From the NCBI GenBank assembly GCA_903833275.1, contig CAILEP010000022.1:124001-188000 (forward strand): a DNA stretch of 64,000 nucleotides, written 5' to 3'. The notes under the pieces are model-generated. The model was given only the letters and a program-made list of their open reading frames with translations. It searched no databases and was not told the DNA's origin. This DNA is from an uncultured Bdellovibrionales bacterium (GTDB taxonomy: Bacteria > Bdellovibrionota > Bdellovibrionia > Bdellovibrionales > UBA1609). Each line of letters begins with the position of its first letter. Position 1 is the first letter of the stretch. Below are positions 15,369-20,183 of this stretch, piece after piece. The position numbers were made by a program, and so were the translations under genes.

Positions 15369-15568
15369 AAATCGATTTTACGGCCGTAAGGTCGAGGGCA
15401 TAAGGCCTTCATTATTAACGGACATTCTTTTTTTACTGGTCGGCCCAGCCTTGGTTTTTGATAAAAGGCCACACCGAAAGTCGCGTTAACGGGCTAAGTT
15501 GCTGCATTCAGTTAGTTTTGCCCAAAGGTCGTGTTGCGTTGCGCACGTGTTATTCCGATACGTTTGAC

Positions 15569-16140
15569 GTGAAATCAAAATGGATATTTAAAACTTTAAT
15601 CATTCTCGCCGCGGCCATCGTGATTTTTGGCACGCCAAATCACGCACAGGCTGATGGAGCTGGCTCACAGCTAGGTCTTCTTTACGGTCTTCTGTTCCGG
15701 ATATGTCGAATACCAACCCGCACGACATGTTTGGCGTAAAAGGGTCTACATTTTGGAGTTCGAACTTTTCTCTCGGCGGCTATTATCTTTTATCTCGCTA
15801 TCAACAGGGCCTCGACGGCATCCCCTTCGACTATACAATCAGCGGCATCGAAGCCGCCTTTCATATGCCCAACGGCGGCGGTGATGTCTTTGTTGGTTTT
15901 CGGGGCGGGCTTACCAAAGTGCATTCGACCCCAGCGGCAGGCGTAGACTTAATTTATTCGCCGTATCACTACGGCCTTGTTGTCGGTTATGACTTTACCC
16001 TCACGGGCCCACTTACCGTCGGGTTTGAAGGTTCTTACTTACATATTGAGGGCGCCGAAACCACAGTCAACGGTACCCAATACACCGAAGCTAAATTTGG
16101 CTTGATGAATTTTTTAGTAACGCTGTCACTTCGCTTTTAA
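15569..16140 (+). pseudogene. Outer-membrane barrel protein broken by a one-base frameshift
   Basis: Two frames join to make one plausible exported barrel. The first (from GTG 15569) gives a signal peptide ending near AQADG and the start of the mature protein (SQLGLLYG). The second gives MSNTNPHDMFG and then about 140 strand-rich residues ending in LSLRF, a normal C-terminal signal for barrel insertion. The shift is near 15687-15695, where one added base would restore GL-x-SVPDMSNTN in line; the total would then be 573 bases, an exact number of codons. It may be a true pseudogene or a read error. Confidence 0.6.
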
Positions 16141-16158: not shown

Positions 16159-16222
16159 GTTTCAGAAACTGTACCGCTACCGTGGGCCGCCGTCTGTGGA
16201 CTGAAACTGTTATTCTTTTTTT
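16159..16222 (+). terminator. Possible rho-independent terminator
   Basis: GTTTCAG at 16159-16165 pairs with CTGAAAC at 16201-16207 and is followed by a T-rich run (16208-16224). The loop is long (35 bases) and the T-run lies in the end of the opposite gene, so the call is weak. Confidence 0.3.
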
Positions 16223-16710
16223 TTCGAACAGAGCTGATCGACTTGGCCCATTTCGTGCCGAACATTTTCATTAAATATCAGCTCGTTGGCGAGCCAAAAA
16301 ATTTGAAATTGATCCATTTTAGCTAAGCCGCAAAAGCCACTATCGACATAACAACTAACATGCGAGTGCATGCCCACGACCTCGGCATCTACGCAGGTCA
16401 GGCCCCTTTGATTTTCAAGGCGATCAACAAGACAACTGCGAATTTTGGCAAGCACGGCCTGAACACGGTCCGAAAACTTGCTGCTATTTCTAATATACCG
16501 TCGGCAATATTTCTGGCCAAACTGCAGCAGGTAAGTGTCTTTTGCACATCCAAGCTCATTGGCTTTATAGCAATAGAAATCGCAGATCGTGCCATCAAAA
16601 GAACAGGCCTCTTGAGGGCTCGCCAGAGCCTTCGACCGCTCGGCATTGGCCGACGACCCTGCCAGAATTAATTGGCCAACCAAAAATGAAAGTAACAAAA
16701 TATTTTTCAT
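16210..16710 (-). CDS. Secreted cysteine-rich protein with stanniocalcin-like cysteine spacing
   Basis: A 166-residue exported protein (signal peptide to about residue 23) with ten cysteines at 36, 43, 47, 55, 69, 93, 106, 120, 127 and 161. Spacings in the second half match vertebrate stanniocalcin-1 as I recall it: C-x23-C, later C-x13-CY-x5-C, and about 33 residues to the last Cys. A Phe is at the tenth place after the fifth Cys in both, and CGLAK compares with CSIAK. The extra dimer cysteine of stanniocalcin is absent. This suggests the same five-disulfide fold; homology is inferred, function unknown. It ends in Lys/Glu residues encoded by an A-rich run. Confidence 0.6.
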   Translation of the reverse strand: MKNILLLSFLVGQLILAGSSANAERSKALASPQEACSFDGTICDFYCYKANELGCAKDTYLLQFGQKYCRRYIRNSSKFSDRVQAVLAKIRSCLVDRLENQRGLTCVDAEVVGMHSHVSCYVDSGFCGLAKMDQFQIFWLANELIFNENVRHEMGQVDQLCSKKKE

Positions 16711-16743: not shown

Positions 16744-17271
16744 TTACTTGTAATTCACACAACGAAGCCATAGTTCAGTACCGGCCTTGAGCCCCGAGCC
16801 AAGTTCAAATAAAGCGGGCTGCCCTTTCTCAGTAGCGAATGACTCGAGCGGTATATGAGCAACTTCTGTTGGCATTTTTGACGAAGCGGCCATTGAGATC
16901 GACATCACGTAGTGCCGAGGTCGGGTGTCGGTCGCCAACATTTTCTGCAAAAAATTGGGGAGCCAACTCGAAATCGGTTCGTTAATGACATCCATTTCTG
17001 AAATTTGAATACTGCTGCCGTCGGCCAACCAAACCTGATGATCCATCAATGATTTGCGCGCATCTCTGGCCTCTGGATGTTTTTCTGAATCAAAAATAAA
17101 TCGCAGTAACGAAACATCCGTCTTGGCCTGCTTCGAGATTTCATGAACTTCGCAAAATAACGAGACTAACTGGGGTGTCGGGTTTTGCGCCTGGGCGCTT
17201 GGGGCTACAACCACGAACAAGGAGAAAAATGCCGGCCAAATTCGCAACCAAAGTTTCGATGGACGTCGCAC
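16744..17271 (-). CDS. Small secreted protein of unknown function
   Basis: A 175-residue exported protein from a GTG start with CGGGG seven bases upstream. The signal peptide ends near AQA-QN. There is one Cys near each end of the mature chain (SLFCEVHE and LRCVNYK), which may form a disulfide closing a beta-sandwich-like domain. It lies just upstream of the cysteine-rich gene on the same strand, with a 33-bp gap, so the two probably share a transcript. No known family is recognised. Confidence 0.6.
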   Translation of the reverse strand: MRRPSKLWLRIWPAFFSLFVVVAPSAQAQNPTPQLVSLFCEVHEISKQAKTDVSLLRFIFDSEKHPEARDARKSLMDHQVWLADGSSIQISEMDVINEPISSWLPNFLQKMLATDTRPRHYVMSISMAASSKMPTEVAHIPLESFATEKGQPALFELGSGLKAGTELWLRCVNYK

Positions 17272-17548: not shown

Positions 17549-18088
17549 ATGCCTTCAAATAAACCAAATCAAAAACCGTTTAATTTTTCAAAAATTTCAG
17601 TTTGTTTGGCGATGAGCGCCTTTATAAGCCTCGGCCATTTGATCTTGTCAGAGGCCGCTTACGCTGACGTCGATCACGCGACGACCTCGATTTTCTTTGG
17701 CATGACCACAGGGGCAGAAGATGGCGACCCGCAATCGCTAAAAAACACCATGAAAGAGATCGGCAAGAATTTTAAACTTATCGGCGGCTCGTTTTCGGAT
17801 GCCTCTCAAGCCGATGCCAACGCCGCGCGAGCGAACCGCGTTGCTGAACTATTGACTCTGGCTTTAGATAAAACTCCAGATAAAATCGACCAACTGCCGG
17901 CCTCAGAACAGGCCGATGCGCTCAAAAGATTTCAAGATGAAATCAAAAACATGATTTCGCTGGTGCGTGAATTGGCTGCCGATCTTCAAGCCAAAAAGAT
18001 GGATGCCCTCTCTGCGATCATGAGCAAAATTAAAGATGCAAAACAAAAAGGCCACGACGAATTTAAAGAAGAAGACAACGGCCATTGA
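17549..18088 (+). CDS. Cytochrome b562-like periplasmic four-helix haem protein
   Basis: After a signal peptide (to about residue 40) the mature chain is helical. The helix-1 motif TMKEIGKNFKLI matches the Met-ligand helix of E. coli cytochrome b562 (M-x2-L-x2-N-L-K-V-I), and the last helix ends with IKDAKQKGHDEF, like the His-ligand helix. Met68 and His169 would be the axial haem ligands, 101 residues apart against 95 in E. coli. AAAAAAGGAG lies just upstream of ATG. It overlaps the dihaem lipoprotein gene by four bases, which supports an electron-transfer role. Confidence 0.72.
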   Translation: MPSNKPNQKPFNFSKISVCLAMSAFISLGHLILSEAAYADVDHATTSIFFGMTTGAEDGDPQSLKNTMKEIGKNFKLIGGSFSDASQADANAARANRVAELLTLALDKTPDKIDQLPASEQADALKRFQDEIKNMISLVRELAADLQAKKMDALSAIMSKIKDAKQKGHDEFKEEDNGH

Positions 18089-19050
18089 TTAAAAGCAGAC
18101 CGCTCTTTTTTTTAAGTGCTCTCCTAAAATGTCGAGCCATCGCAGGCGGCCTCAAGCTATTCGCCTTGGGGCTTTTCACCTCGACGCTATTTGTATCGGG
18201 TTGCAATATGTATCTCGATAAAATGAATAATAGCGCGGCCGACATAACTCCTGTTTCTCGCACCGACCTCAATAAATTCAACTTTGATTTTGTGATGAGC
18301 TCGGTGATTGGCCCGCGCTGTCTCGAATGCCATCGCAATGAGAAAAAAGACCAACCCGACCTCACTGATTATGCGAAGCTCATGCGCTACGTAAAACCCG
18401 ATTCGCCGAGCACCAGTGATCTCTTCACTAATCTGCAGGGCGCGGGCGGCGATATGCCCAAGAAGAGGCCGGCGCTTGGGCCTAATCAGCTTGAGCTACT
18501 TCGTCTTTGGATTCTAAGTGGAGCACCACAAAATGCAGGCCAAGGCCACGCCCCTGGCAACGACATTGCGCTCCCGATCCCAATTCGCGACGTTGAGGTT
18601 GAACCCAATTTTGCCTCGATCAAAAAAAATGTCCTCGATCTTTATTGCCTAAAATGCCACGAGCCTCATCCCGATAAGCACAAGGGCCCCGACCGCGGCA
18701 TCGACTTCACCACCTACGAAACGACCATGGCCAGCCAGAATGATGAAGACGGCGGCTTTGCTGTGGTCGCCGGTAAGCCCGATGATTCGGCAATAGTAGA
18801 AGTTCTGCAGAAGGGCACCATGCCGCGACCGAAAACCGAATCGCGGCTTTCAGCCAATGTTGCCATCGCCATCGCCACTTGGATCACCAATGGGGCTAAA
18901 AATGACAGTGCGCCAACGCCGGCGCCAACTTTAACGCCGGCGCCGCTGCCCACGCCCACACCAGAACCGACGCTCGCCCCAACGCCAGAGCCAACTACGA
19001 CACCGGCCCCTCAGCCGTCAGCCCAACCCACGCAGGCGGCCAACCCATGA
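18085..19050 (+). CDS. Dihaem cytochrome c lipoprotein with Pro/Thr tail
   Basis: A lipobox FVSGC (Cys40) indicates a lipid-anchored periplasmic protein. Two c-type haem sites follow: C79-LE-C82-H83 and C188-LK-C191-H192. Each has a later Met-Pro motif (GGDMP near 124 and GTMPRP near 252) that may give the sixth haem ligand. The layout is like planctomycete-type cytochrome domains. The last 45 residues are a Pro/Thr/Ala spacer, fit to span the periplasm or cell wall. The TTG start overlaps the previous stop as TTGA, and its own stop overlaps the next start as ATGA. Confidence 0.85.
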   Translation: MIKSRPLFFLSALLKCRAIAGGLKLFALGLFTSTLFVSGCNMYLDKMNNSAADITPVSRTDLNKFNFDFVMSSVIGPRCLECHRNEKKDQPDLTDYAKLMRYVKPDSPSTSDLFTNLQGAGGDMPKKRPALGPNQLELLRLWILSGAPQNAGQGHAPGNDIALPIPIRDVEVEPNFASIKKNVLDLYCLKCHEPHPDKHKGPDRGIDFTTYETTMASQNDEDGGFAVVAGKPDDSAIVEVLQKGTMPRPKTESRLSANVAIAIATWITNGAKNDSAPTPAPTLTPAPLPTPTPEPTLAPTPEPTTTPAPQPSAQPTQAANP

Positions 19051-20183
19051 GACCATTTATTTTCGCGCGGTTGACGCCACTATTGGCCATTATTCTTTTC
19101 ACCATTATGTTTTTTACCGTCTCGCTTGAAGCATGGGCTTACCCTGATCTGGTTCGGCACGGCTACGCGAGTTGCCTCGCTTGTCACGTCAGCCCTACGG
19201 GCGGCGGGCTGACGACCCCGTATGGTCGCTCGCTATCGAAAGAACTTGTGAGCCATTGGGGCCGTGAGGGCGAAGAAAAGTTGCTCTACAAGACGACCCC
19301 ACCTGAGTGGCTCAATATTGGCGGCGATGTGCGCGCCATCCAAACCTATGTCAATACTCGGGCCTTCAAGCAAGCCCGATTTTTTCAGATGCAAACGGAT
19401 CTAGAGGTCGCCGTCAGTTATAAGAATTTTTACGCCGACACCACCGCCGGCGTTCAAGAGGGGCCCGAATCTACGGTCAATCGCGGGCATTTTCTTTCGC
19501 GAAGGCATTTTATCGGGTATCGGCCAAAAGATGAACTTTCGCTGAGAACGGGGCGCTTTCAAGCGGCCTATGGCCTTAATTTGAGCGACCACACCGCCGT
19601 CACACGCCGCAATCTCGGTTTTGACGAAAACACTGAAACCGATAATATCGAAGGCGCCATCATCGGCGAGAATGCCGACTTATTTCTGACAGGGATATTC
19701 GGCCGCACTGACGAACCCTGGGGCGATTGGGAGCACGGCGCCGCACTCTCGACCAGCTACTTCTTTATGGATCGCTTCAAGGTTGGCTTTAGCCTGCTAC
19801 ACGGCGACAAGAGCACATCGACTCGCGACCTGGTCGGTCTCAATGGCATTCTCGGCTTTTCGAAAAAACTCTACGCAATTTCTGAAGTCGATTTGCAAAT
19901 GCAGAGCTCAAAATTGGTCGGCGGCGCCTATACTCACGGTGGGGTTAGTTACCAACAGCTCAACTATGAGTTTTTACAGGGCCTCCATGTCTATCTCGCC
20001 CACCAGGTCTCCTACCTCGATTTTAGCGATGTTTTTTCTCGTGTTGACTCTTGGGGTGCCGGCACCGAGCTTTACCCTCGCCCCCACCTCGATTTTCAAC
20101 TGGAGCTTCGCAAAGAAAGAGCCATGGCCCTCTACACTAGCTATTACGACGTCGGCTGGGTTGTGTTACACTACTATCTATAG
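19047..20183 (+). CDS. Monohaem cytochrome-porin fusion, outer membrane
   Basis: A signal peptide (to about residue 31) is followed at once by a c-type haem site C43-LA-C46-H47 and a GGGL..PYGR segment. The remaining 320 residues read as a beta-barrel: RTGRFQAAYGLN, many aromatic girdle residues, and a C-terminal VVLHYYL. Fusing a haem site to the periplasmic mouth of a barrel would let electrons reach the outer membrane. It is the third gene of the haem operon (ATGA overlap). The role in extracellular electron transfer or metal reduction is inferred. Confidence 0.78.
   Translation: MRPFIFARLTPLLAIILFTIMFFTVSLEAWAYPDLVRHGYASCLACHVSPTGGGLTTPYGRSLSKELVSHWGREGEEKLLYKTTPPEWLNIGGDVRAIQTYVNTRAFKQARFFQMQTDLEVAVSYKNFYADTTAGVQEGPESTVNRGHFLSRRHFIGYRPKDELSLRTGRFQAAYGLNLSDHTAVTRRNLGFDENTETDNIEGAIIGENADLFLTGIFGRTDEPWGDWEHGAALSTSYFFMDRFKVGFSLLHGDKSTSTRDLVGLNGILGFSKKLYAISEVDLQMQSSKLVGGAYTHGGVSYQQLNYEFLQGLHVYLAHQVSYLDFSDVFSRVDSWGAGTELYPRPHLDFQLELRKERAMALYTSYYDVGWVVLHYYL

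Follow-up and report, generated by a model that had tools for sequence, protein, structure and literature searches.

The window, meaning the whole 64,000-nucleotide stretch of DNA analysed here (from a 3.08-Mb draft genome of an uncultured Bdellovibrionales bacterium), encodes a small bacterial protein with ten cysteines that very probably has the stanniocalcin fold through shared ancestry with that family. This degree of confidence applies to the identity of the protein and not to its function. By fold and by family profile, the bacterial protein belongs with the stanniocalcins. A bacterial member of this fold had been proposed in a preliminary description of the window, and the proposal is supported by the family profile, the predicted fold and the joint loss of cysteines, with the protein standing in a bacterial branch and not among the hormone-type stanniocalcins. 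The ORF was found as described there, with the cysteine spacing claimed. Its position and those of associated features are given in Table 1.

Table 1. Positions in the window of the stanniocalcin-like gene, its parts and the gene upstream.
Feature	Position	Strand	Basis or remark
Stanniocalcin-like protein gene, 166 aa + stop	16210..16710	-	ORF, ATG start; homologous ORFs in 115/368 phylum genomes
Putative Sec signal peptide, residues 1-23	16642..16710	-	Read by eye from sequence
Stanniocalcin-like helical domain, ~residues 29-165, all ten cysteines	16216..16626	-	AlphaFold model and STC2 alignment
Most conserved motif of the family, SHVSCYVDSGFC, residues 116-127	16330..16365	-	Member alignments
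175-aa gene upstream, same strand	16744..17271	-	No Pfam match

The cysteines of the window protein lie at residues 36, 43, 47, 55, 69, 93, 106, 120, 127 and 161, with gaps of x6, x3, x7, x13, x23, x12, x13, x6 and x33. For human STC1, intrachain cysteines are given at residues 45, 54, 59, 65, 74, 98, 114, 128, 135 and 170 in the available text of PMC2744999, from which gaps of x8, x4, x5, x8, x23, x15, x13, x6 and x34 were calculated. On these published positions the ten cysteines of the window protein do follow the order of STC1, and the equal gaps that had been pointed out (x23, x13 and x6, with 33 against 34 residues to the last cysteine) are borne out. The gap between cysteines 4 and 5 differs (x13 in the window protein, x8 in STC1). 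In 87 of 114 members of the family the third cysteine is placed one residue later than in the window protein, which yields the stanniocalcin gap of x4. Compared with STC2, the ten intrachain cysteines again stand in the same order with like gaps (x23, x13, x6 and 33/34), and the gap between cysteines 4 and 5 is longer in the bacterial protein. Both proteins carry CY at the eighth cysteine and KF past the fifth; the latter contains the phenylalanine previously cited as a match, ten residues past that cysteine. The CxxAK match holds for the window protein itself (C127-GLAK, against CSIAK in the STC1 sequence as far as it was available), but AK is not kept across the bacterial family and the match is therefore of little weight.

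Searches with the window protein as a single sequence returned no Pfam match, PF03298 included, and no PDB chain, and phmmer gave only 6.2 bits against an STC2 fragment. The relationship to the stanniocalcins was found via family profiles, not via a single sequence. At E ≤ 1, the window protein picked up relatives, some weak, in 22 of the 59 near genomes. Profile A2 contained 11 sequences, recruited by the window protein alone. Profile A1 contained 19 sequences (those of A2 and eight more, five of which came from a PF03298 search), and profile A5 contained 109 of the 114 members, the near-duplicates L035, L054, L163, L166 and L172 being omitted. A1 and A5 are biased because some of their members were recruited with PF03298, whereas A2 is free of such members. 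The profiles were searched against 177,635 PDB sequences. With A2, the top three matches were STC2 (E = 0.0061). STC2 was likewise first with A1 (E = 2.3e-6, no unrelated match listed) and with A5 (E = 4.5e-7, next unrelated match at 0.93).

As a control, the STC2 fragment was shuffled 1000 times per profile with its cysteines fixed and its other residues permuted. The real fragment scored 33.1 bits with A1 (best shuffle 17.3, 993 reported), 23.5 bits with A2 (best shuffle 14.9, 988 reported) and 35.5 bits with A5 (best shuffle 20.6, 980 reported); with none of the three profiles did a cysteine-fixed shuffle reach the real score. Neither chance nor the cysteine ladder by itself accounts for the likeness to stanniocalcin.

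In the opposite direction, a PF03298 search of the class gave matches at E ≤ 0.01 in 9 of 143 genomes and exceeded the gathering cut-off (23 bits) in 3 of 143 (controls 0 of 14). The ORFs above the cut-off (in G022, G030 and G041) are relatives of the window protein, by which the same three were found at 5.1e-7 to 2.2e-14. In one of the nine matched genomes the match was false, an unrelated acyl-CoA-dehydrogenase-like ORF. When members were scanned singly, 32 of 109 matched PF03298 at E ≤ 0.01, and one other Pfam family was matched, by one member. The window protein itself stays below the PF03298 cut-off, unmatched, so that PF03298 as built misses most of the bacterial branch. Among 48 members, NCBIfam gave one stray match and PHROGs none.

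The AlphaFold model built for the window protein from 19 aligned sequences had a mean pLDDT of 86, with the core above 90. The first Foldseek match was an STC2 chain (probability 0.95, E 0.21). Structural realignment placed four STC2 entries first (Z 9.4, 9.2, 8.6 and 8.5; next 5.1), the best of them over residues 29-165 of the window protein (Z 9.4, rmsd 4.5, 131 aligned). A second model, of the Bdellovibrio bacteriovorus member (48 sequences), had a pLDDT of 93.9. Here, three STC2 chains came first in Foldseek (probability 0.99-1.00, E 0.038-0.17), and realignment gave Z 11.3, 11.1, 10.4 and 10.2 for STC2, with a spidroin domain next at 7.6. With human STC2 (PDB 8a7d, 8a7e, 7y5q and 8hgh) the helical fold is common over ~123-131 aligned residues, at 13-17% identity in structural alignments. 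The Foldseek E-values are weak (best 0.21 and 0.038 for the two models), and the alignment tool cautions that Z below ~13 may reflect an arrangement common in helical bundles. What counts in these predictions is that all four STC2 entries come first, by a margin, in both models; a fold unlike stanniocalcin, which had been named beforehand as a refuting outcome, was not obtained for either member. The authors of an STC2 structure report, in the available part of PMC9579167, that no other protein of similar fold was found. No paper on bacterial stanniocalcins was found in the open-access literature.

Convergence would mean that a small exported helical bundle has arrived at a similar cysteine order with no ancestry in common with stanniocalcin. 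It draws on the commonness of helical bundles, for which middling Z scores are not conclusive, on Foldseek E-values above 0.001 and on the failure of single-sequence searches. It is nevertheless improbable, given that profile, fold and cysteine co-loss (see below) agree, that cysteine-keeping shuffles fail to reproduce the score and that STC2 stands clear of unrelated folds.

Common descent was further examined through the disulfide pairs. In STC1, these are 45-59, 54-74, 65-114, 98-128 and 135-170, i.e. 1-3, 2-5, 4-7, 6-8 and 9-10 of the ladder (PMC2744999); the STC1 and STC2 pairings used were those in the available text of PMC2744999 and PMC9780223. Joint loss of cysteines was counted in 141 members, made up of the 114 and 27 new ORFs of a second phylum (31 after duplicate removal). 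The 114 members do not represent all 115 family-bearing genomes of the phylum, and two frames from G004 (L013), both fragments, were left out before they were counted. The second-phylum ORFs cover 31 of 32 genomes (ten, twenty and G374, which is L067), G512 being absent. All ten cysteines are present in 103 of the 141 members. Exactly C1 and C3 are missing in 19 and C3 alone in 4, both positions being scored by region, where stray cysteines may count; exactly C2 and C5 are missing in 7. The remaining 8 are cysteine-poor: four are without any cysteine at the ten places, and the others keep C2 and C5, C8, C1, or C1 and C3 (one each). The cysteines of pairs 4-7, 6-8 and 9-10 were lost only together.

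When all 945 possible pairings were compared, 15 tied for the lowest discordance (6), the pairing of stanniocalcin being one of them because both informative pairs are stanniocalcin pairs. In the 114-member count, 87 members have both C1 and C3, one has C1 only, four have C3 only and 22 have neither; such co-loss counts are inflated by relatedness. A tree-based test of C1/C3 co-loss was underpowered: one pair could be used when branches had to be supported, and 11 when every branch of the best tree was accepted. Where co-loss is informative, a pairing different from that of stanniocalcin, the second refuting outcome named beforehand, was not seen, and the counts support two of the five pairings, 1-3 and 2-5, as being those of stanniocalcin.

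Further bacterial members, for which a search had been recommended, were found in bulk. With profile A1, the phylum gave matches at E ≤ 0.01 in 115 of its 368 genomes, single-contig genomes included; three of the 115 matched weakly (>0.001). In the second phylum, that of one Myxococcales MAG, 32 of 235 genomes matched at E ≤ 0.001, and PF03298 itself matched in 0 of 95. Named records comprise B. bacteriovorus kdesi, Bdellovibrio sp. UBA4095, a Halobacteriovorax MAG, a Bdellovibrionales MAG, two Myxococcales MAGs and two unclassified proteobacterial MAGs. Eight of 12 matches in a pattern search were relatives. A plasmid search returned no match, and a search of viral contigs no relative.

Stanniocalcins have reportedly been described from eukaryotes, to go by the title that Roch and Sherwood chose in 2011. 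Recent acquisition of a stanniocalcin gene from a eukaryote, or contamination of the assembly with eukaryotic DNA, would agree with this, but both are very hard to reconcile with a family that is spread over two phyla in the numbers given above, single-contig genomes among them, and whose members are only 18-34% identical to the window protein. This spread and diversity fit an old residence in bacteria. The origin of the hormone family, known as eukaryotic, is thereby open to study in bacteria: the large bacterial branch, B. bacteriovorus included, offers an outgroup for the fold, and the origin becomes testable by phylogeny. Speculatively, stanniocalcins may have begun as an old exported family of Bdellovibrionota/Myxococcota-like bacteria, with cysteine-rich and nearly cysteine-free members, and may have passed to eukaryotes by gene transfer; their first role would then have been to bind and restrain proteases in predation, and STC/PAPP-A would preserve it.

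One subfamily, from genomes of family code f12 to which the Halobacteriovorax MAG belongs (L155-L166, L168, L169 and L172), is longer (~210-305 aa) and well conserved, with an extra N-terminal stretch ahead of the domain; some genomes contain both a long and a short member. No other domain was found fused to the long members in Pfam scans (10 tested), and two gave weak PF03298 matches.

STC1 is a glycoprotein and dimerises via C202. The window protein shares the ten intrachain cysteines of STC1 but is without the eleventh, and it ends five residues past C161, its tenth cysteine; the eleventh cysteine and the C-terminal dimerisation helices, features of the vertebrate hormones, are thus both absent. 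Relative to STC2, it is without C120 (the PAPP-A link), the 197-205 pair, C211 and the dimer helices. The STC2 dimer interface lies within E169-C211, according to the part of PMC9579167 that was available. Judged by dimer cysteine, dimer helices and PAPP-A link as read from its sequence, the bacterial protein is not a stanniocalcin of the vertebrate hormone type. For studies of structure and binding, the bacterial branch supplies a simple form that is probably a monomer.

The putative signal peptide was recognised by eye from a basic start, a hydrophobic core and the end ANA. Together with three DsbA-family genes in the window's genome and the disulfide-locked predicted fold, this export signal suggests work outside the cytoplasm. 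The protein would be exported by Sec, oxidised by DsbA-type enzymes and folded into a compact helical domain, presumably a monomer, with as many as five disulfides locking it in the manner of stanniocalcin. In the vertebrate system, STC1 and STC2 inhibit PAPP-A (PMC9579167, PMC9780223; available text), docking at a distance from its active site. By analogy, the bacterial protein might be an extracytoplasmic module for protein binding that restrains a protease, secreted or of the prey, by docking in the same way, for example to shield the predator envelope in protease-rich prey. We put this function forward tentatively.

A closer copy of the PAPP-A/STC axis, with the stanniocalcin-like protein regulating a self-encoded pappalysin (PAPP-A-type M43), could appeal to the same inhibition and to the existence of bacterial pappalysins (PMC11674741, available text), but it is highly unlikely, since M43 and the stanniocalcin-like gene never occur in the same genome among the 368. 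Peptidase_M43 was found in 5 of these and in 0 of the 115 with the gene, nor was it found in the window's genome. A self-encoded pappalysin partner is largely ruled out by this distribution, and these genomes contain no copy of the animal STC/PAPP-A axis.

Four residues (Y46, L94, H117 and Y121) are present in 141 of 141 members. H117 corresponds by alignment to Q in STC1 and STC2. The eight cysteine-poor ORFs (L195-L202, all of the second phylum) keep these four residues as well, which suggests that they mark the family's most ancient core, be it functional or structural. In the protease-restraining reading, the invariant H117/Y121/Y46 set would be a binding or core site. The same residues could instead belong to an envelope protein of stanniocalcin fold that binds a metal or small ligand, with H117, Y121, Y46 and Y60 as ligand site and the disulfides only stabilising; their presence throughout, including the 8 members with nearly all cysteines lost, speaks for such a protein, although conservation of histidine and aromatic residues may also be structural. 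This possibility is a doubtful one by itself, and binding of a ligand or metal around H117 is given the same likelihood as the protein-binding, protease-restraining role.

In four of the five cysteine-poor ORFs read (neighbourhoods L203-L207), the signal peptide is replaced by a polar stretch bearing GNxxxQ, a motif that may resemble those in the leaders of injected proteins. L206 and L207 each have a similar-looking gene (APDGSGWLFGWRGG and RPDGSGLMFGWRGG) directly after the cysteine-poor ORF.

Gene surroundings were compared in up to 29 stretches (the window, the eight loci of the named records and twenty others). No conserved neighbour or operon partner was found in them; the widest non-family cluster occurred in 5 stretches and the others in at most 3. 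The 175-aa gene upstream fell into no cluster common to at least three of the neighbourhoods compared. Its stop is separated by 33 bp from the ATG of the stanniocalcin-like gene, and the two are possibly co-transcribed. A scan for promoters and terminators gave no signal that rose above the level set by shuffles. Two overlapping ORFs on the plus strand (15458-15739 and 15703-16140) together resemble a single outer-membrane barrel protein broken across frames. Positions 17549-20183 hold, in this order, a gene of cytochrome b562 type (PF07361), one for a protein with two cytochrome c stretches (PSCyt1), and one that combines a CxxCH motif with a weak match to a porin; an electron-transfer cluster may adjoin the stanniocalcin-like gene.
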